Shown here: positions 6,224-31,417 of the stretch, piece by piece
How positions within the stretch are numbered: the stretch's first letter is position 1
How the letters are laid out: each line of letters starts with the position of its first letter
Assembly: GCA_022870745.1 (NCBI GenBank)
Contig: CP085323.1
Span: forward strand, 1,054,001 to 1,118,000
DNA from: Silvibacterium acidisoli
GTDB lineage: Bacteria > Acidobacteriota > Terriglobia > Terriglobales > Acidobacteriaceae
DNA length: 64,000 nt
Direction of reading: 5' to 3'
Notes under the pieces: model-generated
Told to the model about the DNA's origin: nothing
Seen by the model: only the letters and a program-made list of their open reading frames with translations
The model's database searches: none
Translations under genes and position numbers: made by a program

Positions 6224-7483
6224 ATGCAAAACCGCGATTTCCTCTTTCGCGTACGCGTTTCGTTGGCTCTTGCGGCCACGCTGGCGGTTGCACCTGCCGC
6301 AGTGGCCCAGTCCAGCAGCCAGCAGCCAGCGCAGCCCAGCACCCCGGCTTCGACACCTGCCCCTTCGTCCACACCCGACCAGCAGAACCCTGCCGACGAT
6401 AAGCAGGTCGGCACCGTTCCCGTGCCAAAGCCCGACGCTGCTCCGAGCACTCCTCCGCCAAAGGGATCGACCGACGATCCGAACAAAGCTAACACGGGCG
6501 ACCCCAACTCGATGGAGAAGGTAAAGGCAGGCAGCATCGACGACGTAAACGCCGTGGGTACGCGCGACATCGGCGGACGCGGCATGGGCAACTGGTACTC
6601 AACCGAGTCTGAGATCAAGATGGGCAAGTCGTACGCCATGCAGATCGAGAAGAGCACGAAGTTCGTGACCGATCCGGTGGTGACGGAGTACATCAATCGC
6701 ATCGGCCAGAACATCGTGCGCAACTCCGACTGCAAGGTGCCGTTCACGATCAAGGTGATCGACACCGACGTCATCAACGCCATGGCGCTGCCAGGCGGAT
6801 TTTTCTATGTAAATTCCGGCCTGATTCTAGCGGCCGATGAAGAGGCCGAGCTGGCGGGCGTGATGGCCCACGAGACGGCGCACGTCTGCGCTCACCATGC
6901 TGCCCGTGAGATGACCCGCGCAAACTACGCGCAGATCGGCAGCATCCCGTTGATCTTCATCGGTGGCTGGGCAGGATACGGTATTTACGAGGCTTCGAAC
7001 CTCGCCATCCCGATCACCTTCCTGGAATTCTCACGAGAGTTCGAGGCGCAGGCCGACTACCTGGGCATCCAGTACATGTACCGCGCGGGATACGATCCGC
7101 AGGCCTTCATTACGTTCTTTGAGAAGATTCAGGATCTTGAGAAGCACAAGCCGGGAGCGGTTGCCCGCGTCTTCTCCGACCATCCTCAGACACCCGACCG
7201 CATCGAGCACTCACAGGAAGAGATTGCCCGCATCCTGCCGCCGCGTGACGAGTACATGGTCACAACATCGGAGTTCGATGACGTGAAGGCCAGGCTGGCG
7301 CGCATTGAGAACAAGCGCAAACTCACCGATGGCAAGAATGGAAACAAGCCGACCCTGCGGCGGGTGAACTCAACCGATCCGAACACCCAGGGCAGCAGTC
7401 CAGACGATCGGCCTACACTGCACCGGCGGGATGACAGTGGAACGAGCACTACCGGTGGCAGCACCCCGAACTCAACAAACTAG
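6224..7483 (+). CDS. Secreted M48 family zinc metalloprotease with Pro/Ser-rich linkers
   Basis: A 419-residue protein with a signal peptide (cleavage about AVAQ-SS, residue 29). A low-complexity Pro/Ser/Thr segment (30-90) precedes the peptidase domain. The zinc motif HETAH is at residues 216-220 and the third ligand is probably the Glu in FSREFEAQADYLG. This resembles periplasmic M48 proteases such as BepA and LoiP, which handle outer-membrane protein quality control, but there is no TPR domain; the tail after about 345 is again low complexity. Start ATG at 6224 follows a GGAG box. It is divergent from the dehydrogenase gene (149-nt gap) and convergent with the anti-sigma gene (11-nt gap). 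Exact substrate unknown. Confidence 0.85.
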   Translation: MQNRDFLFRVRVSLALAATLAVAPAAVAQSSSQQPAQPSTPASTPAPSSTPDQQNPADDKQVGTVPVPKPDAAPSTPPPKGSTDDPNKANTGDPNSMEKVKAGSIDDVNAVGTRDIGGRGMGNWYSTESEIKMGKSYAMQIEKSTKFVTDPVVTEYINRIGQNIVRNSDCKVPFTIKVIDTDVINAMALPGGFFYVNSGLILAADEEAELAGVMAHETAHVCAHHAAREMTRANYAQIGSIPLIFIGGWAGYGIYEASNLAIPITFLEFSREFEAQADYLGIQYMYRAGYDPQAFITFFEKIQDLEKHKPGAVARVFSDHPQTPDRIEHSQEEIARILPPRDEYMVTTSEFDDVKARLARIENKRKLTDGKNGNKPTLRRVNSTDPNTQGSSPDDRPTLHRRDDSGTSTTGGSTPNSTN

Positions 7484-7494
7484 CAGTTGCGAAG

Positions 7495-7728
7495 CTAGCA
7501 GTTACGGCATTTGGACAGAATGGCCTTCTGCAGACGATCGCGAAGGTCATTTGGCAACTCGTAAATCTCGTGCTTGCGGTAGATCTCGATCGTCTTCCGG
7601 GTAGTGTTCAGCGTGATGACGCAATGCTCGCAGCCTTTGAGATGTGCTTCGAGATCCGCCCGCATCGTCACGGTTACGTTGTTATCCATCAGATCGTCGA
7701 GTTGCGCTAAAAACTCCGAGCAAGTCAC
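7495..7728 (-). CDS. Zinc-binding anti-sigma factor (ZAS family)
   Basis: A 77-residue protein with the ZAS signature: His29, Cys33 and Cys36 in HLKGCEHC, plus Cys3 at the N terminus, and a basic C terminus ending in a further Cys pair (Cys74, Cys77). There is no membrane segment, so it is a soluble, RsrA/ChrR-like cytosolic anti-sigma factor that probably releases its partner after thiol oxidation or metal loss. Its ATG overlaps the stop of the ECF sigma gene by 4 nt (ATGA), so it is translationally coupled to its cognate sigma factor. The redox-sensing role is inferred from the family. Confidence 0.82.
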   Translation of the reverse strand: MTCSEFLAQLDDLMDNNVTVTMRADLEAHLKGCEHCVITLNTTRKTIEIYRKHEIYELPNDLRDRLQKAILSKCRNC

Positions 7729-8351
7729 TTCGCACCATCCTTGTTTCTGTCGCGGAAATAACGGTTTAGCCGTTCCCGCAACTGTAGCCGAGCCCGCAAC
7801 AGGCGCGACTTTACCGCTGGAATACTTAAACCCAGGGTTTCGGCAGTTTCTTCTGTCGACAGCCCTTCCACGTCGCGCAGCACAAATACTACTCGGAAAC
7901 CCGGCGGCAGGCCCTGCACCGTCTTGCGCAGAATCTCGGCCATCTCGGACTGCCCGTACTGCTGCTCCGGATCCGGTCCCCAGTCCGCCAGGTCGCGCGG
8001 CATGGAGCCTTCTTCAGTCTCGACGTCTTCGTCAATCGAAACCATGCGACCGGTGCGCCGCTTGCGCAGGCGCATCAGCGACTCGTTTACGGCAATTCGA
8101 ACCAGCCAGGTATAGAACTTCGAATTCCCCTGGAACTGTTCGAGCTTCTCGTAAGCCTTTAGAAATGCATCCTGGACAACATCCTCGGCATCCTCGCGGT
8201 TCTGCGTGATGTGTTGAGCAATTCTGAAAACCTGGCGGTCATACTGCCGCACCAGCTTCTCGAATGCACTTACATCACCGGCCCGCGCCTGATTGACGAG
8301 CAGTACGTCCGGGTGAACTTCTTCCGTGCCTTCTGTTTGAATCGTTGACAT
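7725..8351 (-). CDS. ECF RNA polymerase sigma factor (RpoE/SigE type)
   Basis: A 208-residue group IV sigma factor. Region 2 (DAEDVVQDAFLKAYE, about 58-72) binds the -10 element and core enzyme, and region 4 (STEETAETLGLSIPAVKSRLLRAR, about 160-185) is a helix-turn-helix for the -35 element. The linker carries an acidic VETEEGS stretch. It sits directly upstream of, and overlaps, its ZAS anti-sigma partner. A terminator-like hairpin with a six-T run lies between 16 and 36 nt before the start codon, which could attenuate the operon. Divergent from the lytic transglycosylase gene across 254 nt. Confidence 0.88.
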   Translation of the reverse strand: MSTIQTEGTEEVHPDVLLVNQARAGDVSAFEKLVRQYDRQVFRIAQHITQNREDAEDVVQDAFLKAYEKLEQFQGNSKFYTWLVRIAVNESLMRLRKRRTGRMVSIDEDVETEEGSMPRDLADWGPDPEQQYGQSEMAEILRKTVQGLPPGFRVVFVLRDVEGLSTEETAETLGLSIPAVKSRLLRARLQLRERLNRYFRDRNKDGAK

Positions 8352-13189: not shown

Positions 13190-13276
13190 GCCTGGATGGC
13201 GGAATCGGCAGACGCAGCGGACTTAAAATCCGCAGACCGCAAGGTCGTGGGGGTTCAAGTCCCCCTCCGGGCACCA
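13190..13276 (+). tRNA. tRNA-Leu, anticodon TAA
   Basis: An 87-nt class II tRNA with encoded CCA (13274-13276). The acceptor stem pairs GCCTGGA (13190-13196) with TCCGGGC (13266-13272), with one G-T pair. The anticodon stem GCGGA/TCCGC closes the loop CTTAAAA, so the anticodon is TAA, reading UUA. The variable arm (GACCGCAAGGTC) and T arm (GGGGGTTCAAGTCCCCC) are intact. It marks the left border of the unusual 13-44 kb region, but I see no second copy of its 3' end and no integrase. Confidence 0.95.
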
Positions 13277-13331: not shown

Positions 13332-13712
13332 TTAGGGGACCAAGAGTTCCTTATGGAATCCGCTCCGCAGATCGGCGGGGATGGATTGCTGTATCCTGCG
13401 CTGGAACCTCCCTGAAAACGTGCTGCGCTCATATAGCCCTGTTCAAGCCCTCGCGGCAGTCGCTGCATCCGTCGCAATCAGGAATGGCAGGATTTTAGCG
13501 AGGAATCTTTGTTGAGGAATAACAAAGGCACTTCTCTTTAATTGGCAATTACTGACGAGAACGCGACTTATCAGGAGTAACCCTTCTGTCGCGCGTACGC
13601 ATAAGTTCCCTGTGTGTGAGCGCCAGGCGTACGCCTCTCTTCAGGAAAGAAGATATCCGATGCCTGGCGCTCATACACTTGGGTTCGGGCCTGCTTCGAA
13701 ACAGCCGAAGCG
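13332..13712. other. Non-coding stretch between tRNA-Leu and the peptide genes
   Basis: I see no convincing gene on either strand here; short open frames are shadows with no ribosome-binding site or family signal. The only clear structure is the long inverted repeat at 13612-13678, listed separately. The segment 13500-13560 is AT-rich. Confidence 0.5.
13612..13678. repeat. 17-bp inverted repeat with internal palindrome, downstream of the peptide genes
   Basis: GTGTGTGAGCGCCAGGC (13612-13628) pairs with GCCTGGCGCTCATACAC (13662-13678) with one mismatch and a 33-nt loop. A second perfect palindrome, AGGCGTACGCCT (13625-13636), overlaps the left arm, so alternative folds are possible. It begins 35 nt after the stop codon of the second peptide gene on the minus strand and could end or protect that transcript. 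There is no T-run. Confidence 0.6.
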
Positions 13713-13940
13713 TCAGCAGGCTACGGCCAGACCGCCTCCCTGCCAACTGATGGCGCCGCGCAATGCACAGCATGCGGCACAATTCCAGTTGCCTGGAATA
13801 TTGCCATTCTGATCAAAGCAGCGACCGATGATGCTGGTGGGAACGCCCGCGCAGGATGAAGGCGTAACTCCTGTGGCAGACGGATTGTTTTCGGTGAAGA
13901 GGGCGCGGCGGACGGGCTGTTGCTGTTGGGGAAGTCTCAT
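13713..13940 (-). CDS. Cyanobactin-like RiPP precursor peptide B (Cys-rich)
   Basis: A 75-residue peptide, ATG at 13940 after a strong AAGGAG box (5-nt spacing). Leader: residues 3-12 are LPQQQQPVRR, an exact match to the cyanobactin leader pattern LPxQxxPVxR. Residues 24-28 are GVTPS, matching the GVEPS/GLEAS elements that precede core peptides in PatE and are cut by PatA. The predicted core (29-75) has six Cys (30, 41, 54, 57, 58, 75), a CAACC cluster, and a hydrophobic, Gly-rich end. It lacks the heterocyclase-binding LAELSEEAL segment and a C-terminal AYD-type macrocyclisation signal. It lies 29 nt after peptide A and shares its leader without gaps. Structure of the mature product unknown; disulfide or thioether links are possible. 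Confidence 0.72.
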   Translation of the reverse strand: MRLPQQQQPVRRALFTENNPSATGVTPSSCAGVPTSIIGRCFDQNGNIPGNWNCAACCALRGAISWQGGGLAVAC

Positions 13941-13969
13941 GGTTTCTCCTTGTCTTTCTGCGCGATACG

Positions 13970-14143
13970 TTATTCGGATTGGCAGATCTGGCCGGTGTTG
14001 CAGTTACAGAGGCATCCGTATCTGCATTCTCGATTCTGGCCGCAGCACATGCACATGTCGGATGGCCTGACGCCTGCCCCGCTGCGCTTATCGCTCGAAA
14101 GCAGACTGCGAGGAATGGGTGGAACCTGGTTGGGAATTCTCAT
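13970..14143 (-). CDS. Cyanobactin-like RiPP precursor peptide A (Cys-rich)
   Basis: A 57-residue peptide. I place the start at the ATG at 14143 (MRIPNQ), since this aligns with peptide B from the first residue; an AAAGGAG box lies upstream. Residues 3-12, IPNQVPPIPR, are a conservative form of LPxQxxPVxR, and residues 24-28 are GVRPS at the same position as in peptide B; 12 of the first 28 residues are identical. The core (29-57) carries eight Cys (31, 33, 34, 40, 44, 46, 48, 54), over a quarter of its residues, including CMCC and CLCNC. Such density fits a metal-binding or multiply cross-linked peptide. It follows the protease gene by 68 nt on the same strand. Too short for most gene finders. 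Confidence 0.72.
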   Translation of the reverse strand: MRIPNQVPPIPRSLLSSDKRSGAGVRPSDMCMCCGQNRECRYGCLCNCNTGQICQSE

Positions 14144-14211
14144 GATGTGCATTTCTCCTTTCAATCCTGATGGAGTGAGGGGTTTTATTAGCTCAACGAA
14201 GGAACAGGAGG

Positions 14212-16149
14212 CTATTGATATACCTCCCAGTGACGAACCTTGCCAACGGTGACAGGGATGACATCGCTGACGTCGACGGTGAAGCGGTAGACCTGTTTGG
14301 CCTGCTCAAAGCGGCGCGAAGGATTGAAGAAACTAAGCTTGATATCCCAGCAATCGGAGCGAGGACGACAAAGCGGGCTGCGCTCGTATTCGATCCGATC
14401 CAGCGTCAGAGACGAGACAATCGCATTCTCGAAAACCTTATCGATCTGGTGAGCGTTGGTTGCCGCGAAGTTGATGGCACGTTCATGAGGAGCCGATCCA
14501 AGGTTTCGCAACTCGTAGTAGACACGATCGAGGAAATTGCCGATGTGGGCCTGGCGGGCCTGCAGTGCGCCGGAGTCGTGCGTAACCTCCGCAGTGACAG
14601 CTTGAACCAGTGCGGCCTTTGACCAGTGATACATGCCGCGAATTTCCGGAGCGATGATGGGGACAGACTGTCCGTTGAAGAGCATTACACTGCCAGCGAC
14701 ATAGCCCGGAATCGACACGACGTCGACTCCTTCAGCGATCTGGCTGTGCAGCGATTCACGTAGGCGCTCATAGCCGATAGTGGCATAGGCGCCCACAGGC
14801 TGAATCGCATAGATCGGGGTAGCATCCTGAACGACGATCCAGATGAACGCTGGAGCAAATTCGGGGTGTTCGGTGACAAAGCTGACCACAGCAGATCCAT
14901 CCTGAGGTTGAGACAGACCTGCCTGCAAAAGAGAGTCGCGCCGGGCTTCGGTGCCGAAGTCGTATGCAACCTGGCCCAGAACGTAGACGAGACGTGGAGC
15001 GGCGGATGCGCTACCACCGCATCCACATCCAGCCGGTATGACCTGGGTGTCGGCGGCACACTGCGGAATAACAGCCGGCGGAAAAGATTCCGATGGCACG
15101 GCTTCCGCCGTGCTGATTTCCAGCTCTTGCATAGAAATTTCTCCTTGAGCAGATGGTTGATCGGATTGGGACGCAGCACGGACTGCAGTAGGGTTAAGCT
15201 CCTGGCTGCGAGACGTTACGGGAAAGTGTTCGGCAGAGGATTCAATAAGAATTTTCTGAAGCGCGCCATCAACGTTGAGGATGCCGGCAAGACAGCGCTT
15301 CGAGAGCGCGTTGCCGGGATCGCAAATAGAAGCGCTTTCGATCAGCGCTTTACGCACGACACGGGCATCGGTCTTTCCTGACCGCTGCAACTGCAAAGAC
15401 AACAAAAGCGCAGCCACGCCAGCGACAAGAGCATTCGCAAAACTGGTTCCGGACTTCTCGGCAACATCCGGGCCAGGAACGGCGCCAGGAATAGATTCTC
15501 CGGGAGCAATAATCCCGTGATGGCAATAGCCAGGATCCCAGTTGCTAAGAGCCATCGGCTCGCCTTTTGCACTGAGCGCGCCAACGGCGAGGACGGATGG
15601 TATGGCAGCGGGCACATTTGCGCACTCACAACCCTCATTGCCGGCTGCTGCGACGACGAGAACATTGCCGTCTTCACAGTCCTTGAGTGCATCAAGCAGA
15701 TAGCGGTCAGCGCTGGTGGCGGGACCGAACTGCCCTCCGCTGATGGAGATTAGGTTTGCGCCGGCATCGATTGCAACGCGAATGGCACGCGCCAGATCAA
15801 GCTGAGAACAAGGGATTAAAGATCCGTCGATCGCCTGGTGAAAGATTGGGATCAGGAAACCCGTGCAGCGAGGCGCCACACCAGGGACAGGGCCTTCAGG
15901 CTGGCCAAAGATGAGACTCGCTACGTGAGTTCCATGCCGCGCGGCAGTGCCACTGAGGTCGACCGGTTGAGTCTCGATGTATTGAAGACTGGCACCGGCG
16001 AAAGCCGGGTGCGCAAGATCTGCTGGGCCATCGAGAATCGCGACGCGTATGGCGGGGTGTCCCTGGGTGAAGGCCAACAGAGCATTCAATCCAGGAAGAA
16101 CAAAAGACAACTCACGTGGATCTCGGCAATGGCTTGCAGTCGACTGCAT
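14212..16149 (-). CDS. PatA/PatG-family cyanobactin-maturation-type subtilisin protease
   Basis: A 645-residue protein, start ATG at 16149 after AGGAG. Residues about 20-260 are a subtilase (S8) domain with Asp40 (ILDGPADLAHP), His72 (RHGTHVAS), oxyanion Asn171 (AAAGNEG) and Ser236 (SGTSFANA). A linker with GCGCGG leads to a C-terminal part (about 395-645) with LVYVLGQVAYDFGTEARRDS, PIYAIQPVG, RGMYHWSKAALV, RVYYELRNLG and RFTVDVSDVIPVTVGKV. This is the conserved accessory domain pair of the cyanobactin PatA/PatG proteases. These cut leader from core; PatG also joins core ends. There is no oxidase domain and no signal peptide. It heads an operon with peptides A and B, its likely substrates. 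Whether it cleaves only or also cyclises is not visible. Confidence 0.86.
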   Translation of the reverse strand: MQSTASHCRDPRELSFVLPGLNALLAFTQGHPAIRVAILDGPADLAHPAFAGASLQYIETQPVDLSGTAARHGTHVASLIFGQPEGPVPGVAPRCTGFLIPIFHQAIDGSLIPCSQLDLARAIRVAIDAGANLISISGGQFGPATSADRYLLDALKDCEDGNVLVVAAAGNEGCECANVPAAIPSVLAVGALSAKGEPMALSNWDPGYCHHGIIAPGESIPGAVPGPDVAEKSGTSFANALVAGVAALLLSLQLQRSGKTDARVVRKALIESASICDPGNALSKRCLAGILNVDGALQKILIESSAEHFPVTSRSQELNPTAVRAASQSDQPSAQGEISMQELEISTAEAVPSESFPPAVIPQCAADTQVIPAGCGCGGSASAAPRLVYVLGQVAYDFGTEARRDSLLQAGLSQPQDGSAVVSFVTEHPEFAPAFIWIVVQDATPIYAIQPVGAYATIGYERLRESLHSQIAEGVDVVSIPGYVAGSVMLFNGQSVPIIAPEIRGMYHWSKAALVQAVTAEVTHDSGALQARQAHIGNFLDRVYYELRNLGSAPHERAINFAATNAHQIDKVFENAIVSSLTLDRIEYERSPLCRPRSDCWDIKLSFFNPSRRFEQAKQVYRFTVDVSDVIPVTVGKVRHWEVYQ

Positions 16150-21859: not shown

Positions 21860-24800
21860 ATGGGTACGCAAACCATTCGATACGCCGACATCGGCGCCGG
21901 AGACAATTCTCCGATCGAGATCAGCGGACTCGATCCTACGGTGGCCAAGCTGGGACTGGCCGTCGGGCTCCTTCAGCCTGGTGAGGGTGTCGATACCTAT
22001 TTGCTCAATACAGCCTGGTTCGCCGATCCGCTTGGCGCCACGCAGCTGTCCCTCACCACAAACGGTCCGCAACTCGCCGATCTGATCGCGGCCTTGCTGG
22101 GCAGCCTGGGAGGCACAGCTCTGGGCATTCCGCTCGAGAACACGCGCAATCTCGGCACCTGGTACCCGATCCTCAATCCATCCACCGGACAGCCCACCGG
22201 CCTGTATCTTGTCTCGCAGACTACCGGTGCCCTTTCAATCTTCAGCCTTGGCATCAACTACAACTGGCCTCTCGGAGACACCTTCGCCATTCGTGCCTGG
22301 GGGTTGCTGCCCATCCTTCAGGTTGGAAATGCCTCTTACGAACTCATCATCGGGCAGGATAGTGCTCCGCTCACTGTCGGCATTGAGACAGCTTCTTCTA
22401 CTCCATTGATCAACGCATATGGGCTGCAGCTTGCGGGAATGCGTTTAACCGGAAGCCTGGCATTACTGCCTGATGCTTCGGCATCCATCTCGCTTGAGGC
22501 CGTGGGTCTGCAGCTCCCGGGCGAGAGCGAACCGAAGGACCGCTCTCTGTCCGACCTGGAACAACTCACGGGCACGCAGATTCTGGCCACGGTCTCCACG
22601 ATCTTTGTGGCAGCCATGTCGGACGCGTTGGGTACGCCCGATAACCCTCAGCTCGGCTACGTGCTGCCTGTGCTCGGAATGTCGCCTGTACTGCCGCAGG
22701 CGGTCCAGACGCTCTTTCCCGATGCGGTCATGCCGTTGCTGCGCTGGGACGAGATGATCACCGCGGCAATCAACGGTGGTAATCCGGCGCAACCCTTTAA
22801 AAACTGGTTTAGCGCACTACTCTCAACTCCGGATGTTATGGGAGCATGGCTCGCGTCCATCCAGGGGCTCGAAGGTTTAACGCCGAGCGCGGCAACTGGG
22901 TCGGGAACACGCGAGAATCCCTGGAACATCGCAATTCTGAGCAATTCCGTTGGCGCATTGTCTTTCCAGTTCGCCACCCTTGTGAACAAGGATGGCTCGC
23001 GAACGTTTTATCCGGGTCTGGCGTTTCGCTCCTCCAAGGTACAGCTCGGGACATCGCAGGCGGCACTCCAGATGGCTGCCGATCTGGAGCTCGCGCAGTT
23101 CAATCTGTCGCTGGGCGGAGTAAGCGGCGATCCCACCAACCTTGCCTTCGCATCGACCATGATGCTGGTTGGGTTCGGAGAGACGAGCGGCGTCAACAAT
23201 CCACTGTTTTCAGGATCCATCGCCGGGCAGCAATACACCTTTGGCTCCCTCGTTGCCGGACTGCGCATTGGCTACGCGAACGGTCAGCTGAATGTCGTTC
23301 CCTCATTCACATTGACCGGCCTCGATACGCCCGCCGGAACATTTCTCGCACTCGATCTGCTGCAGCCCATGAAGGTCCTGCAGGAAACCCAGACCGTGGT
23401 GGCAGGCCTGATCAACAGCGCGTTGCAACAGATGTTCGGCATCACGGCCGATTCAGCTGGCACCCCATCTTATGCGCTTGCCGCACTGCTGGGCGTGGTG
23501 CCACCGGGTGTGGGAACGGGCAACACCTGGCCTGCGAATCTCGATCCGCCACTGAGCGCTACGCAGCTATTCAACTCGGTGCAAAATCCCGTGCAGGCCA
23601 TGGCGACGTACTACTACAACATCGTCAACTCGACGGCCACGATCGGCAGCCAGGCTCCTTTCTTTTACATGCTGCGCGAGATGGCAACGCTGCTGCAGGC
23701 TCTCACGCAAGTCGCGACGCCGTCAGTAACTGGAACCGGTTCGCCACTCGATCCATGGAAGGCTTCGCTGACCGATCCGGGCACTCTGGTCGCGGACGTG
23801 ATTGCCTACACCGCACCTCAGCCAAACGGAGCGGACCGATTGGTTCTTGGCATCGACCTTGGACTGCAGCTCGTGCCCACGGCCGGTCTCAACGTCAATC
23901 TCATCCTGTCCCTCGAATTGCTGGCGCTGGATCTCTCGCTGGCTAACGGCGCGGTCAGTTGTGCGCCGCAAATTCTTCCCGGTCTTGGCCTCTCGCTTTC
24001 GCTGCCTGACGGCTATACCTCGCCCGCCGTATGCGGCACATCCATCTCCGTGAGCGCGAGCAGCGCGCAGATGGGTTGGAGTCCCTACAGCGGATGGTCA
24101 TGGTCGATGGAGGTTGGGCAGCCTGCGCTCATCTCCGGAGGCCACAGCTACCCTGTCGGCCAGAACATGGTCTACACGCAGGGACAAAGCCTTGAAGATC
24201 TGGTGTTGCAACAGGCCGCGACCTTCGGACAGATCCTGGTCGGCGTGCTCGGACTGGCGACAATGCAGGCCAACGATCGCGCAGGACTCGCCTTCGCGGG
24301 CATTCTCGGCCTCTTACCGAACCTCGGCCCGTTGATGCCTGAGGGGCTTACCTGGCCCGGCAGCATGCCGACGCTGACGGTCACCAGTTTCAACGATCCA
24401 TTTCAGATTCTGCGCACGCAGCTCGTGGGCATCTTCAGCACGCCGGCAAATCTGCAAGCGGCGCTGCAGCTGCTCGCCTGGGCCTCATCGAACTCGGCAA
24501 CGGTGCCTGCAATTCCCGGCTCGGGTACGCTCGAAGATCCTTTCCACGTGCCACTTGGCCTGCCGGCCAACATTGGCATGGCCATCTGGTCGGATGGGAC
24601 CGCAGGCACAGCGGGCATCGGGCTTGATAACTACGGCGTGCTCAATGTCTCGAGCTCCGTGCAATGCACCAGCAGCATCGTTGTCCGCCTGCTCAACGTA
24701 ACCCTGTCAACCGGCGCGCCGGTTGTTGTTGCGGGCGTTCCCGGTCTTAGCGTCACCTGCAAAATGGCCAACCCTGGCGGCCAACTCCTGCCACCGACGG

Positions 24801-27800
24801 CGGACGGCACCTCACTTGACTGGCTCGTGGTTGGCGCAGCGGTTGGAATCAGCGGAACCTTCTCCGCGCCGCAGGTAACGGTCACCCCTACGTTCCTGCT
24901 GTTCAATCTCACATTACCGGGACAAAGTGCTGTTCCGGTTGCGAATCTGGCTGACCCCGGCTCGCTCACGCCGCAGCTTGTGCAGGACGCATTCCGCCTC
25001 GGCCTGCAGGTGGTGCTGCCAACCGCTGTAACCATGGAGCCTTTTCGCACCGCCTACAATCTGCTGGCTACCATGGGGCTGGCGCTGCCCAACGAGGCGG
25101 GGCAGCAGCTGGGCATCAACCCTGCAGGGTGGCGCGGCCTGCTTGCTGATCCACTTAGCTTCTGCAAGGACCGGCTGATCGCACTGGCTGCCGATCCTGC
25201 CACGCAGTCGAGCTTCCTGACCATCCTGCAACAGCTCACAGGAGTTACGCTGCCGACGATTCCGGCAAGCGTGCTGGATTTTCTCGCAGCAATGGGACTC
25301 ACACGGTCCAAGGAAGCGGGATATGTCGTCATTCCCTCGAACTACGTTGCGCTCTTCTCGCACCCGGTTGTTTATGTGCAGACAGCCTTTGCAGCTCTGC
25401 TGGCCGACGAAGTACGGCTCGCTGCGCTACTGGCCTCGCTGCAACAAAGCAGTGGCGTTATAACCTTCAGCAAATTTCAGCTACAAGTATTCTCCGGCCC
25501 GGTGGTGCAGATCACGTTGCCGCCCGGCTCGGTTTCTGCCGGAACCATGCTGGAGGTTTCGGGTGTGCTGCGCGTGGCGCTCAATGCAGGAGCGCAGAGC
25601 TTCAGCCTGGCCATGACGCTCTACAATCCGCAGATCGGCATCGGTTTCGCACCGACACTGACGGGCAACTTCTCCGGCGACTTTGCGATCACGCAATTTA
25701 TCACCTTCGGCGACGGCACACAGCCTGCTCCCGCTCCGCTTAAGATATGGCCATTCAACAGCACAGAATTTGTCAACGCTTTCGCTACGGTTGCACCGTT
25801 CTACGCGCTGTCGATCATGATTTCTCAGGTCATCGATCCGCAACTGTTACAGAAATACACGCTGGTGCAGGCACTCTTCGCCATCCTCGGCATCGCTGAA
25901 CAGGATCAGGACGGCACATGGCACACCAAGGCCCTGCTGGGTCTGTTCGAGGATCCGCTTGGCTGGCTGTTAAGTGACGCCGTTCTCGGCGCGGATGGCA
26001 AGCTCAACATCCCGCAACTGAACAAGCTGCTCCTGCAGGTTCCCAACGTTACCGGCACAAAGCCCACGATTCAGCAGATCGCAAACGGTATCCAACTAGG
26101 AGCATTGCCATACAACCTGCAGATTGCACTCACCGCAGACAAGGCCACAAACCAGGTTGTGATCTCGCCCAGCATCACCGGTACGATCCCTGTTGCAGGA
26201 GGGGCCGCTTCCGTCACGGGTCTTGTCTTCAACCTGTCGCTTGGACCGGATTTCCAACCGGGATTTGGCGGCACCGTCACGATGGCGATCAAATCGCCAT
26301 CACTCAGCGTGACAACCGGCTACGACAAAGCATTCCTGCTCTCGGTAACGTTGAGCGGCGATCCACCTGCGGTCCTGCAACTGGTGCCTTTTACCGGCTG
26401 GCAGCAACTGCTGAGCACTCTGGCATCGTATGCCGCCGCTCAAATCGTTCCACAACTCACGACTCAGCTCCTGCAGGCTCTCTCAGAGAACGGCGCAGCC
26501 GCGTTCGCCACAGCCATGCAGACGGCTGGTACGAATCTCAACGTGAGCGCCCTGTTAAGTGCCCTGGTCGCTTCTGGAGGCACGCTGGACGATCTCGAAA
26601 CCGCCGCGCTCAACTGGCTCGGCCAGAGGTTGACTGCGACGAACATGACGCAGACCGCGCAAGCCGTCGTAGCTCTTCTACAGCTTGCCCTGGGCAACAG
26701 CGTCACCTCCAGCGGAGGGCTGGTCAGCTACATCCCCTCGCAATCTTTGCCACTCTCGCTGCAAGCGGGAGCGCAGGGCAACACCCTGGGAGTATGGGCA
26801 TCCATCACGATGCCTTCAAACCTTGCGGTACAGCTCTCCGTCGCGCCTACGGGCCTAGCCCTGCCTTACGATCCCGCCACAGGAGCCATTACCGGCGGTC
26901 CCGAGTTTTCTTTCGGGCTGGGCATCGGTATTCCCATCAAGGGTGAAACGAATATGCCGTTGCTCTCGATGGGATTCGCCAACCAGAAGTTCACTGCCGG
27001 CTTCGATCCCATGGGCACGCCCAGCACGCAAAGCGATCTTTACGTCGAATTACTGCCGCAATTTTTCTCCAACCCTCAAAACCTTGAGCAGGAGGTAGAA
27101 GCATGGCTGTTAGATGTCTTCACGCAGGTGGTTCCGCGTTATCTCTCGCTTGTCATGCTGAACCAATCCACGGTCAAGGGCTGGCTGGATAGCTCCCTCT
27201 TCAGCACCACCACGCCGGGAACAGTCCTCGTCGCATCCGGACTGCTGGTCAAGAACGAAAATCTCTACCTGTTACAAACCTTCGCCGCGCTGAGCAGCCT
27301 GACAGTGAGCGCATTCCTGGCCAATCTCCTGAAAGCGCTTCTCTCGGTACAGGTCAAGATTCTGGACTTCGGTGCGAAAGGTCAGGTCTGGATTGGTCCC
27401 AACGAGGCGGGGTCGAGCAATTACGGCATCATGATTGCCGCGCAGAACCTGAGCCTCGACGTCGCGCCCAACTTCGTCTTCCAGCTCGGAGCATCGGACT
27501 CCGCCTGGATCACCGCTGCCGGCGGCCCAACCGGCCTGCATGCCGGACTGAATGTCTTTGTCCCGATCGATGAGAACGGCATTTACTTCGAGAAGCTCCT
27601 GCTGCAGTTAGTCAACATCGGAGTGGACTTTGTAGGACGCAACAAGGCGCCCCTGATCGATCTAAGCCGCTTCACCGTGCGGGCAATTCAACCACGCGGC
27701 CTGCTGCTGTTCGATTTTGCCAAAGGTGGCACGCCTAACGTGTGGGGTGGCGAGGTCACGATTGCGGACATTGGCATCTCGCTTTCTCCGCAGTCCATCG

Positions 27801-30800
27801 GCTCGGGGGGGAATCCGGTAGCGCAGAATCTGCTCGGGTCCGGCTCTTCTGACGGCGGCGCAGGCACGGAAGGAAACGCTGCCAATCCGCCATTCTCGTT
27901 CCAGGCAGGTTATGTCTCGAACAATGGAACCGGTAAATCCGTCGTGGAACTGCTGCAGGGCGGGCAGGTGGCACAGGAGCTCTGGTTCCCCGTGCAAAGC
28001 GGATTCGGACCGATCCATGTCAATCTACTGGGCGTCAAATGGATCTCCCCACAAACCGCGGGCGTGGGCTTCGATGGAAACCTCAATCTCGCGGGGTTGG
28101 GTGTCGCGGTTAAAAAGCTCACTGTCAGCTTCAATGTTTTTGCGCCCACTGACTACACGCAATACCAGCTCGATCTTGCCGGCCTTGATGTGACCTTCAA
28201 CAATGGCCCGGTCGCCATTGCAGGCGGTTTCCTCAAACAGACCAATCCGCTGCAATATACCGGAACCGCGACGCTGAGCTGCGCCAGCTTCACCTTCAAC
28301 GCAATCGGCTCTTACGCGGTGGTTCCGGTAAACGCGTCGCTGCCCGGCTGCCAGCAGGCAGGTGGAGACTGCCCCACGGCCGCATCACTCTTCATCTTCG
28401 TGAACCTCAATGCTCCGCTCGGCGGGCCGCCTGCGTTCTTCATTACCGGACTTGCCGCCGGGTTTGGTTACAACCGGAACATCCTCATTCCCGCAGTCGG
28501 CGATATCTCCACGTTCCCATTTGTCATGGGAGCCACCGATCCGAGCTACTTCACTTCGGATGATCCCGCGACTGTGCTCACCCAGATTTCAAACATCGTT
28601 CCTCCGGAAATCGGCGCGTACTGGGTCGCCGCCGGGATCAAGTTCACCAGCTTCGAGCTGCTGAATACCTTTGCGCTGCTCTTTGTGAAGTTCGGCAAGG
28701 GCTTCGAGCTGGACCTGGTAGGCGTAACCTCGGCCGCGCTACCGCCAAGGAGCCCGCTGACGCTCGCCTACATGGAGCTTGGCATCCTGATCTCGTTCCG
28801 TCCCGACGAGGGCTACATCGCCGTGCAGGCGCAGCTTACTCCGAACTCTTATTTACTGGCTCCACCCTGCAGGCTTACCGGAGGATTCGCATTCATTCTC
28901 TGGTTTTCAGGCGACTTCGTGCTTACCCTGGGCGGCTACAACCCGCTCTTCAGCAAGCCGCCGCAATATCCTGAGGTCCCACGCCTCGGCTTCACATGGC
29001 CGGTGTCGGTCTCCGCAGGCGAGCTGAAGATCGCTGGCGGAGCCTATTTCGCGCTCACTCCCACGGCCATCATGGCGGGCGGTTATCTGCAGGTGGCCTT
29101 CACACTTGGCCCGATCCGCGCATGGCTCAACGCAGGTGCTGACTTCCTCATCCAGTGGAAACCTTTCTATTACGACATCTCTGTCGAGGTCTCCATCGGC
29201 GTGGCTTTCCATACCGAGATTCTGGGAATTTCCATCACGATCTCCGCCTCGCTCGGAGCGGCGCTTCACATCTGGGGACCTGAGACCGCCGGATATGCGG
29301 AAATCAACTGGTATGTGATCTCGTTCACGATCCCCATCGGCGACCAGAACAAGAATCTCCAGACCCAGCCACTGGGTACCTGGGACGATTTCGCAAACGC
29401 CTTCCTGCCGCCTGCGGACACGTCTGTACATAGCGGGATCGAGAGCGAAGATCCTCAGCCTCCGGGCGCGGTCCTGACACTCAGCGCAAGCGCCGGTGCG
29501 CTCTCCGGGCCTGCGGGTAATGGAGCCAACGGACAACCCAATGCGTGGGCCCTGACCATGGCCAACTGGCAGATCCAGGTCAGCACGGCGGTGCCAGCCA
29601 CATCCCTGCAGCTCAACGGAGTGGCGCAGGCTAGCGGCAAACCCATGGGCGTCCGCCCGATGAACCTGTCTTCCGCTACCACGCCGCTTTCCGTCACGCT
29701 TTCCTCCTGGAACGCTCCAACGAGTACATGGATACCGCTGACGCTCAGCGAAACCACCCTCACGCTCGGCATACTCAGCAACGATGCGCCCATGGCCCTC
29801 TGGGGTCAGGGCGCACTCAACCTCGACTCGCCGCCTACTGCGCCCTTCAGTATCGCCGGAGCCTGCGTTGGCCTTACCGTCTCCGGTGTCGATTTCACCT
29901 ACAGCAATCCAATCGGCCCCATTCCCTTGCAACAGGCGTTTGCCTTTGCTCCGGCCACGCCACGCAGCTTTCCGAATCAGCCGCAATGGACAGCTCCGCC
30001 AGCCAATACACAAAGCGGCGCCTTGCAGCGGTTGAGCGAAACCGTCATGGCGCCAGCGGTTATCGACATGCGTAACCAGGTGCTGGCGGCACTGGAAGGC
30101 ATGGGGATGAATGTCTTAAAGAACCCTCAACTCCCGGTCATCGCTGCGTATGCGGACGCTCTTTTTCAGGCGCCACCCTATCTCGCTCCGGTAGGAGTCG
30201 ACTCCGCGCCGGCGCCAGCGACCATCGGATCGGCGCCGCAACTTGCCGCAGCGACGAAGTCTCAAACCGTTACGCCGCAGACGCCGGCATCCATCCAGCT
30301 CATCGGCGGCATTTATCGCAACTCCTGGCCCGGCAATCAGGCCGTTCGCAAAGTTCGCAGCCGGGGCGGCGAGGAAGGGATGCGCCTTCAGATGCCGGTG
30401 GCACGACAGACCGGCCGGTGGATTGGTCCACTTCGCTCCGGTGTGCCCAATTCCAACCTGTCGCTGCTGCGAGCACAAATGCCGCAGACCGGCAACGCTT
30501 CAGAACCGGTGGGAGAGCGGCTCAGTGTGGCCCCTGGTGCAGCCTTGCTCGTCGAAACCAGCCTTCCTGCCGGAGCTAAGGCAATCGCAAGCGTTTCAGG
30601 AAATATCCCCGTAAGAGTCTGGGCATTGAACGCATATGACGAGCTGGTCGGTGCAAATCTAGTGGAGCCCGGCAACAACGTTACGTTGCCCTCCGATATC
30701 TCGCATGCCGTGATGAGCGGCGAAAGCCGTCGCACCGTGCAATCGGATAAGACGGTTGGCTGGCAACTCTCCAGCACACTCACGCAGGTGGGCCGTTACA

Positions 30801-31417
30801 GCTTCATCGGCGACGCCTGCCTGGTTCGTCCGCAGGCCACGCCGGCCCGCATGCAGGATCGTCGTCATACCTGCCACGGATCAGTCGATGGCGCCTGCAT
30901 TCTCCGCAACAACACGGTACATATCGGCGGCAGGAATGTTCCGGGATGGGTGGAAACGATGCTTGCAGGGGCAATGATCGGGCCGTCAGGGTCGGTCGCA
31001 GTCTGTCTCCGTAACATCACGGCGGAGGCCGCCGGCAAAACAAACATCAGCCTGGCGTGGACAGCGGAACCGTGGCAGCCCACGTATGAATTCTCGTTCG
31101 CCCCTCAGCAGGTTCTTTCTGCCACGGACGGTTGCATCCTCGTCTTCAACGTGCCCGCGGGCACGGTCGAAGCATGGCTCGCGGTGCTTGTTCCGGGCAG
31201 CATCGAGTATCAGCTCGAAGGTGTCTGGGGTATCAGCGCTCCTCCGGGACAGGTGGCTCGTCTCTGGCCAGGCCTGACCGGCCTGGTCGACGGAATTCCG
31301 CCCACGTTGGACCAGACAGAGTGGAGCACGGTGTCCGTCAACATTCCTCAACAATCGGTGAGCCAGCAGCCCGACAGCTCCGCACCGGTCTCTGGCGTGA
31401 AGGGAGTTACCAAGTGA
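21860..31417 (+). CDS. Giant 3185-residue protein with DUF6603-like core
   Basis: One uninterrupted frame of 9.6 kb; ATG at 21860 after a GGTGGA box. No signal peptide or membrane anchor. The N-terminal half has repeats of about 260-280 residues, each with a GSGT..P-aromatic motif (ATGSGTRENPWNIAI, VTGTGSPLDPWKASL, IPGSGTLEDPFHVPL). It is rich in Leu, Ala, Gly, Thr and poor in charge, suggesting long beta-sheets. Residues about 2010-2500 resemble DUF6603: AGLDVTFNNGPVAIAGGFL, GGYNPLFSKPPQYPEVPRLGF, FALTPTAIMAGGYLQVAF. The C-terminal third (2500-3185) has Ala/Pro-rich linkers, a basic patch near 2830 and a beta-rich end. Its stop overlaps the next start (GTGA). Role unknown: scaffold, toxin-like cargo or lipid conduit are guesses. 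Confidence 0.82.
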   Translation: MGTQTIRYADIGAGDNSPIEISGLDPTVAKLGLAVGLLQPGEGVDTYLLNTAWFADPLGATQLSLTTNGPQLADLIAALLGSLGGTALGIPLENTRNLGTWYPILNPSTGQPTGLYLVSQTTGALSIFSLGINYNWPLGDTFAIRAWGLLPILQVGNASYELIIGQDSAPLTVGIETASSTPLINAYGLQLAGMRLTGSLALLPDASASISLEAVGLQLPGESEPKDRSLSDLEQLTGTQILATVSTIFVAAMSDALGTPDNPQLGYVLPVLGMSPVLPQAVQTLFPDAVMPLLRWDEMITAAINGGNPAQPFKNWFSALLSTPDVMGAWLASIQGLEGLTPSAATGSGTRENPWNIAILSNSVGALSFQFATLVNKDGSRTFYPGLAFRSSKVQLGTSQAALQMAADLELAQFNLSLGGVSGDPTNLAFASTMMLVGFGETSGVNNPLFSGSIAGQQYTFGSLVAGLRIGYANGQLNVVPSFTLTGLDTPAGTFLALDLLQPMKVLQETQTVVAGLINSALQQMFGITADSAGTPSYALAALLGVVPPGVGTGNTWPANLDPPLSATQLFNSVQNPVQAMATYYYNIVNSTATIGSQAPFFYMLREMATLLQALTQVATPSVTGTGSPLDPWKASLTDPGTLVADVIAYTAPQPNGADRLVLGIDLGLQLVPTAGLNVNLILSLELLALDLSLANGAVSCAPQILPGLGLSLSLPDGYTSPAVCGTSISVSASSAQMGWSPYSGWSWSMEVGQPALISGGHSYPVGQNMVYTQGQSLEDLVLQQAATFGQILVGVLGLATMQANDRAGLAFAGILGLLPNLGPLMPEGLTWPGSMPTLTVTSFNDPFQILRTQLVGIFSTPANLQAALQLLAWASSNSATVPAIPGSGTLEDPFHVPLGLPANIGMAIWSDGTAGTAGIGLDNYGVLNVSSSVQCTSSIVVRLLNVTLSTGAPVVVAGVPGLSVTCKMANPGGQLLPPTADGTSLDWLVVGAAVGISGTFSAPQVTVTPTFLLFNLTLPGQSAVPVANLADPGSLTPQLVQDAFRLGLQVVLPTAVTMEPFRTAYNLLATMGLALPNEAGQQLGINPAGWRGLLADPLSFCKDRLIALAADPATQSSFLTILQQLTGVTLPTIPASVLDFLAAMGLTRSKEAGYVVIPSNYVALFSHPVVYVQTAFAALLADEVRLAALLASLQQSSGVITFSKFQLQVFSGPVVQITLPPGSVSAGTMLEVSGVLRVALNAGAQSFSLAMTLYNPQIGIGFAPTLTGNFSGDFAITQFITFGDGTQPAPAPLKIWPFNSTEFVNAFATVAPFYALSIMISQVIDPQLLQKYTLVQALFAILGIAEQDQDGTWHTKALLGLFEDPLGWLLSDAVLGADGKLNIPQLNKLLLQVPNVTGTKPTIQQIANGIQLGALPYNLQIALTADKATNQVVISPSITGTIPVAGGAASVTGLVFNLSLGPDFQPGFGGTVTMAIKSPSLSVTTGYDKAFLLSVTLSGDPPAVLQLVPFTGWQQLLSTLASYAAAQIVPQLTTQLLQALSENGAAAFATAMQTAGTNLNVSALLSALVASGGTLDDLETAALNWLGQRLTATNMTQTAQAVVALLQLALGNSVTSSGGLVSYIPSQSLPLSLQAGAQGNTLGVWASITMPSNLAVQLSVAPTGLALPYDPATGAITGGPEFSFGLGIGIPIKGETNMPLLSMGFANQKFTAGFDPMGTPSTQSDLYVELLPQFFSNPQNLEQEVEAWLLDVFTQVVPRYLSLVMLNQSTVKGWLDSSLFSTTTPGTVLVASGLLVKNENLYLLQTFAALSSLTVSAFLANLLKALLSVQVKILDFGAKGQVWIGPNEAGSSNYGIMIAAQNLSLDVAPNFVFQLGASDSAWITAAGGPTGLHAGLNVFVPIDENGIYFEKLLLQLVNIGVDFVGRNKAPLIDLSRFTVRAIQPRGLLLFDFAKGGTPNVWGGEVTIADIGISLSPQSIGSGGNPVAQNLLGSGSSDGGAGTEGNAANPPFSFQAGYVSNNGTGKSVVELLQGGQVAQELWFPVQSGFGPIHVNLLGVKWISPQTAGVGFDGNLNLAGLGVAVKKLTVSFNVFAPTDYTQYQLDLAGLDVTFNNGPVAIAGGFLKQTNPLQYTGTATLSCASFTFNAIGSYAVVPVNASLPGCQQAGGDCPTAASLFIFVNLNAPLGGPPAFFITGLAAGFGYNRNILIPAVGDISTFPFVMGATDPSYFTSDDPATVLTQISNIVPPEIGAYWVAAGIKFTSFELLNTFALLFVKFGKGFELDLVGVTSAALPPRSPLTLAYMELGILISFRPDEGYIAVQAQLTPNSYLLAPPCRLTGGFAFILWFSGDFVLTLGGYNPLFSKPPQYPEVPRLGFTWPVSVSAGELKIAGGAYFALTPTAIMAGGYLQVAFTLGPIRAWLNAGADFLIQWKPFYYDISVEVSIGVAFHTEILGISITISASLGAALHIWGPETAGYAEINWYVISFTIPIGDQNKNLQTQPLGTWDDFANAFLPPADTSVHSGIESEDPQPPGAVLTLSASAGALSGPAGNGANGQPNAWALTMANWQIQVSTAVPATSLQLNGVAQASGKPMGVRPMNLSSATTPLSVTLSSWNAPTSTWIPLTLSETTLTLGILSNDAPMALWGQGALNLDSPPTAPFSIAGACVGLTVSGVDFTYSNPIGPIPLQQAFAFAPATPRSFPNQPQWTAPPANTQSGALQRLSETVMAPAVIDMRNQVLAALEGMGMNVLKNPQLPVIAAYADALFQAPPYLAPVGVDSAPAPATIGSAPQLAAATKSQTVTPQTPASIQLIGGIYRNSWPGNQAVRKVRSRGGEEGMRLQMPVARQTGRWIGPLRSGVPNSNLSLLRAQMPQTGNASEPVGERLSVAPGAALLVETSLPAGAKAIASVSGNIPVRVWALNAYDELVGANLVEPGNNVTLPSDISHAVMSGESRRTVQSDKTVGWQLSSTLTQVGRYSFIGDACLVRPQATPARMQDRRHTCHGSVDGACILRNNTVHIGGRNVPGWVETMLAGAMIGPSGSVAVCLRNITAEAAGKTNISLAWTAEPWQPTYEFSFAPQQVLSATDGCILVFNVPAGTVEAWLAVLVPGSIEYQLEGVWGISAPPGQVARLWPGLTGLVDGIPPTLDQTEWSTVSVNIPQQSVSQQPDSSAPVSGVKGVTK

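Follow-up and report, generated by a model that had tools for sequence, protein, structure and literature searches.

In the window, by which we mean the whole analysed stretch of 64,000 nucleotides from Silvibacterium acidisoli, we observed three consecutive genes on the minus strand: one for a PatA-type protease, followed by those for two small cysteine-rich peptides, B and then A (Table 1). The first-pass annotation had described the two peptides and missed the protease gene, which lies just upstream of them on the same strand. The intergenic gaps measure 68 bases between the protease gene and B and 29 bases between B and A, and the three genes apparently form one transcription unit. The hairpin that follows A (z of -4.4, no shuffle equally stable, T-run absent) is the probable end of this unit. 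Ribosome-binding sites of the AAGGAG type, as previously noted, are present ahead of both peptide genes. For A, AAGGAG lies 5 nt ahead of the ATG; for B, it lies 11 nt ahead of the ATG at 14143 or 2 nt ahead of an in-frame ATG at 14152. The longest open reading frame for B begins at a TTG at 14164, and homologues begin with M-x-[LI]-P, matching the start at 14143. Further along the window, an open frame of 3185 aa extends over 21860-31417, and no Pfam match was found for its first 713 aa; the adjoining region between 31132 and 39092 holds large unnamed ORFs, which likewise gave no Pfam match.

Table 1 Positions of the protease, the precursor peptides and associated features in the window
Feature	Position	Strand	Details
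tRNA-Leu (taa)	13190..13276	+	Same-genus synteny ends here
Strong hairpin, 17-nt arms	13612..13678	.	Directly past the stop codon of A; no T-run
Precursor peptide A	13940..13713	-	75 aa; 6 Cys in the 47-aa core
Leader of A, 28 codons	13857..13940	-	Start MRLPQQQQPVRR; disordered in model
GVTPS at residues 24-28 of A, predicted cleavage site	13857..13871	-	PatA consensus and family-wide site
Precursor peptide B	14143..13970	-	57 aa; 8 Cys in the 29-aa core
Leader of B, 28 codons, LPxQxxPVxR-type start	14060..14143	-	Start MRIPNQVPPIPR
GVRPS at residues 24-28 of B, predicted cleavage site	14060..14074	-	PatA consensus and family-wide site
PatA-type cyanobactin-maturation protease, 647 aa	14212..16155	-	TIGR03895, PF18065, PF00082 and PDB matches
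Substrate-like element VIPAGCGCGG, protease residues 372-381	15013..15042	-	In disordered linker, window 15004-15228

The protease matched TIGR03895 (E 2.3e-186, 621 bits against a cut-off of 421 bits), PF18065 (PatG_C, E 2.3e-39) and PF00082 (S8, E 2.7e-23). It consists of a subtilisin (S8) domain at about residues 20-310, a disordered linker at 310-384 and a PatG_D/PatG_C region (DUF) at 385-647, and the columns of its catalytic triad, D42/H74/S238, were invariant across 42 homologues. An A-type protease with S8 and DUF domains, which is one criterion for a cyanobactin cluster, is thus present in the window. The S8 part was nearer to the PatA type (PDB 4h6w, E 9e-79) than to the PatG macrocyclase (4h6x, E 2e-46), and the COOH-terminal part matched the solved PatG DUF (4uvq, E 2e-53). 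An AlphaFold model obtained from 42 sequences had a mean pLDDT of 83, with the linker at 310-384 disordered; Foldseek searches with this model ranked PagA and PatA structures first, and the TM-score was 0.94 for 4h6w (normalised to the target) and 0.79 for the PatG macrocyclase. The spacing between the catalytic Asp and His is 32 residues in the window protease, compared with 34-35 in PatA-type proteins of YcaO loci and about 70 in the PatG-like protein of locus L106, and the window protease therefore has no macrocyclase insert. The family had a single match in the whole genome, with no G-type protease carrying such an insert. Variant architectures were also seen. A protease of 459 aa on a Nostoc plasmid (L039:6944-8320) lacks the part of S8 with the catalytic Ser, yet a precursor adjoins it. 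In two other genomes of the phylum, S8 and DUF are separate neighbouring genes (L043:5974-6912 and 7157-8032; L044:5629-6516 and 6761-7708), with the DUF gene beginning with a segment that carries VSPxxCxxCG; a search for leader ORFs beside these split genes found none.

The two peptides had been reported to share an ungapped leader of 28 residues with 12 identities, and exactly the listed identities were confirmed, as were the lengths and cysteine counts of the two cores. The likeness of the leaders is beyond chance: among 80,594 non-overlapping pairs drawn from the 403 small ORFs of the window, the maximum ungapped identity was 10 of 28 residues, and when leader A was shuffled against leader B, 12 identities were not attained in any of 200,000 trials. 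According to the review PMC10885120, the consensus at which PatA cleaves is G(L/V)E(A/P)S, with the cut following the S. GVTPS of A and GVRPS of B match this consensus at four of five positions, with T or R in place of E as the third residue, so that the region shared by A and B ends exactly at the predicted cut. Neither A nor B matched a family in Pfam, NCBIfam or PADLOC.

To place the locus among its relatives, we scanned contigs with an alignment of four proteases and took the best 80 of 92 confirmed loci, which span 11 phylum-level groups by record title, many of them metagenome bins. The same gene order was present on four Streptomyces plasmids and on several cyanobacterial plasmids. At least one ORF with the strict leader motif was found in 50 of the 80 loci (in L069 and L106 only upstream). 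These ORFs number 88, and 82 of them are on the protease strand no more than 3 kb downstream of the protease, compared with 0.85 expected from shuffles; one lies further downstream, five lie upstream and none is on the strand opposite the protease. A leader profile at 5 bits covered 64 of the 80 loci and selected 143 of 1,525 downstream same-strand ORFs, 5 of 1,659 opposite-strand ORFs and 18 of 3,869 upstream ORFs, a count that is partly circular because the profile was trained on the 82 strict-motif ORFs of the same loci. On this profile B scored 12.4 bits and A 9.0 bits. The remaining 16 loci had no leader ORF at 5 bits; some of them (L079, L098, L104, L110 and L123) have a weaker MxxP-type start, and the available downstream sequence is short in L107 (2 bases) and L125 (344 bases). 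With eight further loci and the window included, the collection comprised 158 precursor ORFs in 72 of 89 loci.

An alignment of 89 selected precursors gave the leader consensus MxLPxQxxPVxR...GVxPS, in which P4, Q6 and R12 are each at least 90% conserved. Searched over the whole genome, the profile of this alignment, to which A and B themselves belong, matched only A (E 5.4e-12) and B (E 8.5e-11). The site G[VIL]x[PA][SN] occurs in 56 of the 158 precursor ORFs (2.6 in shuffles), and in 53 of these it begins 9-14 residues past the leader R. Two ORFs (L073:3493-3681 and L075:7967-8155) carry the leader fused to a stretch weakly like the end of PatG_C (E 0.065 for L073).

A test of selection and codon periodicity was performed on homologues rather than on the window genes themselves. 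Nine pairs of close homologous precursors gave a pN/pS of 0.21, and third codon positions accounted for 100 of 159 substitutions; exceptions were one Janthinobacterium pair near 0.7 and one pair of Okeania paralogues with non-synonymous changes only. As judged from these substitution patterns, the homologous precursors are real genes under purifying selection. The possibility that A and B are chance small ORFs was rejected on the basis of the likeness of their leaders above shuffles, the coupling of strand and position to the protease, and the purifying selection in homologues.

The first-pass annotation had characterized the cores as fully divergent and hypervariable. The former holds for A against B, which agree at two of the first 29 core residues when aligned without gaps, and fails elsewhere, because the core of A belongs to a conserved family. 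Cores sharing 47-53% identity with it occur in Trinickia (E 2e-21) and, at E 2e-14 to 8e-16, in three Janthinobacterium and one alphaproteobacterium; Cys 30, 41, 54, 57 and 58 are invariant. Hypervariability was rejected: when homologous leaders were collected, the leader was indeed conserved and the cores recurred as families common to several phyla. For the core of B, we obtained weak matches only, at E 1e-4 and in part via the end of the leader, to a Mesorhizobium family of the DCCGAG type. In the model of A, one of five models only, the leader is disordered (residues 6-27 under 50) and the core, near 80, forms a hairpin-helix-hairpin. A PDB sequence search with the family of A gave no match, and Foldseek with the model of A gave meaningless matches only (best E 3.7). 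Among 154 distinct precursors, 118 have at least two cysteines, and in 113 of these the number is even, which points to disulfides. The computed oxidised [M+H]+ values are 3257.10 for the core of B and 4676.09 for that of A. Cysteine-free cores exist in the same leader family; those of L046, L068 and L075 are short hydrophobic segments.

The linker of the protease itself resembles a substrate. The linker could be delimited by pattern in 68 of the 89 proteases (21 were dropped), and in 50 of these 68 it contained residues of the [VIL]x[PA] type followed by CxC or CxxC, compared with 0.92 in shuffles. The PatA-type proteins of the YcaO-type loci L038, L083 and L095, and that of L094, have VT[PA]S without Cys at the linker. 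The title of PDB 3zxx, 'self-cleaved protease domain of PatA', is our sole source for self-cleavage of PatA. We infer that the VxPS-like and CxC element is a candidate self-cleavage or pseudosubstrate site.

YcaO heterocyclases occur in many, though not all, cyanobactin clusters. The genome of the window gave no match to YcaO (PF02624), and a TOMM or full cyanobactin cluster, for each of which this heterocyclase (the D protein) is a criterion, was therefore rejected. Most homologous protease loci are without a YcaO heterocyclase, and 35 of 78 genomes with such loci have no YcaO at all (17 of 40 and 18 of 38, with L108 left out). Within the loci, long YcaO matches were found in L083, L095, L106, L109 and L127, a partial match in L112 and one of 27 residues in L063. 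A quick tree of 89 protease rows separated 66 rows, including the window, from 23 with a branch support of 99; it gives no direction, and because the window protease sits on a long branch, its position inside the clade is uncertain. The group of 23 contains every row of the five loci with long YcaO matches and the annotated cyanobactin PatA of L038, together with rows, for example those of the Streptomyces plasmids, whose loci gave no YcaO match; L112 and L063 fall in the group of 66.

The protease was found in one of nine genomes of the genus (none of the other eight); in the order, 1 genome out of 200 had a match above the family cut-off. In four loci of the same genus, the upstream genes and the tRNA-Leu are shared with the window, and none of 14 downstream window genes was found within the 3 to 17 kb that follow the tRNA-Leu in these loci. 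The region past the tRNA-Leu looks like an acquired island, and the system was probably acquired.

We consider it likely that the locus is a minimal cyanobactin-like system, in which the PatA-type protease cuts after GVxPS and frees unmodified disulfide-rich peptides. From the computed family memberships, gene order, conservation of leader and site, absence of YcaO and even cysteine counts, we infer a course of docking, cleavage, disulfide formation, self-cleavage, export and activity. The LPxQxxPVxR start of the leader would most likely dock on the protease, and the S8 domain, given its family and the site, would cut after GVxPS, that is, after S28. This cut would free a 29-residue peptide with eight cysteines from B and a 47-residue peptide with six from A. 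The freed cores would be neither heterocyclised nor macrocyclised and, as their even cysteine counts suggest, would probably fold with four (B) and three (A) disulfides once exported. The VxPS-like site and CxC of the linker would probably serve self-cleavage or self-inhibition of the protease. The products would most likely be secreted small disulfide-rich effectors acting in antibacterial competition or signalling.

The reading of A and B as RiPP precursors, proposed previously, stands in so far as they are precursors with a common conserved leader, different cores and a cognate protease directly upstream, the leader recurring beside homologous proteases in many phyla; a leader-core precursor and a dedicated leader protease are thus present at the level of sequence. 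Strict RiPP status is not established, given that no modification enzyme recurs beside the protease and that the genome is without YcaO, so that the product may carry disulfides only. A full RiPP pathway, with modification enzymes elsewhere in the genome and cysteines modified (for example, to thioethers or thiazolines) before PatA-type cleavage, seems unlikely to us. Precursors usually carry a leader because modification depends on it, and a gene that we take to be methyltransferase-like, recurring in 5 of 89 loci, also counts for such a pathway. Cyanobactins, moreover, are modified, as stated in PMC4663559. Against it are the lack of YcaO in the window genome and in nearly half of the genomes with such loci, the even cysteine counts, which fit disulfides, and the neighbourhood: the protease recurs in 87 of 89 loci and the next commonest family in only 13.

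The eight cysteines within the 29 residues of the core of B, including CxCC and CxCxC, would fit metal-binding cores of the metallothionein type, and no exporter or oxidising enzyme recurs beside the genes in the 89 loci. Metal binding in place of disulfides nevertheless has a low probability in our estimation, given the prevalence of even cysteine numbers, the many related cores with few metal-like CxC pairs and the several families that are Cys-free. We regard it as most improbable that the small genes are non-working, degenerate remains of a transferred cyanobactin cluster. The sporadic occurrence of the protease in genus and order and the start of the locus at a synteny break by the tRNA-Leu would fit such remains, but the catalytic triad is intact, the precursors are intact with ribosome-binding sites, the architecture is kept in many phyla with homologues under purifying selection, and the tree puts the window protease in the clade of 66 rows, where long YcaO matches are absent, and outside the cyanobactin enzymes.

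A wider proposal goes beyond the minimal cyanobactin-like system favoured here, and we offer it tentatively. The relatives may constitute a cross-phylum class distinct from cyanobactins, with one self-cleaving PatA-like protease that carries a substrate copy (VxPS followed by CxC) in its own linker, and with unmodified disulfide-rich peptides drawn from shared core families. Heterocyclising, macrocyclising cyanobactins might then have arisen as one branch, by gaining YcaO, the docking segment LAELSEE and the PatG macrocyclase on top of an older two-gene core, and the NH2-terminal leader motif and the DUF of cyanobactins might be the pair by which precursor and protease dock. PMC4259220 describes the role of the conserved DUF domain of cyanobactin proteases as unknown and reports that PatG-DUF did not bind PatE' in NMR, a result that speaks against docking by the DUF.

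PatA and PatG proteases are named for cyanobactins; most of the homologues here stand with Cys-rich precursors and no adjoining ring-forming enzyme. Among the open-access (CC-licensed) papers searched, none was found to describe PatA systems that lack YcaO and have Cys-rich precursors. If confirmed, the system would add numerous peptide genes of soil and aquatic bacteria that have so far drawn little notice. As a two-gene system it would be easily reconstituted, and the roles of the NH2-terminal LPxQxxPVxR part of the leader and of the conserved DUF domain in cyanobactins would become testable.

Several known peptide families share parts of this arrangement. Cys-free cores of L046, L068 and L075 presumably resemble linear amphipathic bacteriocin-like peptides, and these loci branch elsewhere in the protease tree, away from the window. 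Members of the PatB/AcyB/McaB family (TIGR04220) at L038:11562-11777, L083:9120-9350 and L094:8574-8804 start with LPxxxxPVxR, which suggests that PatB may bind the same site of the protease; unlike the precursors, they lack a GVxPS site and share a conserved body (VDVVHG...LLHGANYNDP), and neither A nor B matched TIGR04220. The leaders of several YcaO-free relatives align weakly (E 0.0014-0.08) with the precursor models TIGR04446 (anacyclamide/piricyclamide) or TIGR03678 (microcyclamide/patellamide), which A and B do not match. All matches of relatives to cyanobactin models are under the curated cut-offs except that to PF19155 (2.5e-8) of the precursor of L095, a locus with YcaO, which also matches TIGR03678 (1e-5).

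The closest comparison is with the cyanobactins (PatA/PatG/PatE; patellamide, anacyclamide and aeruginosamide). These have in common with the window system the PatA-type protease with S8 and DUF, the LPxQxxPVxR start, the G[VIL]x[PA]S site and precursors that adjoin the protease, often several per locus. The start is found in the true cyanobactin precursors of L106 (LMPQQAQPVNR), L083 and L095, and only these three, all from loci with YcaO, have the additional LAELSEE. In contrast, the window system has no YcaO, PatG macrocyclase, LAELSEE stretch or COOH-terminal RSIII (AYDG-like) tail, with A ending in LAVAC and B in ICQSE, and its cores, at 29 and 47 residues, are rich in cysteine, that of A being conserved as a family.
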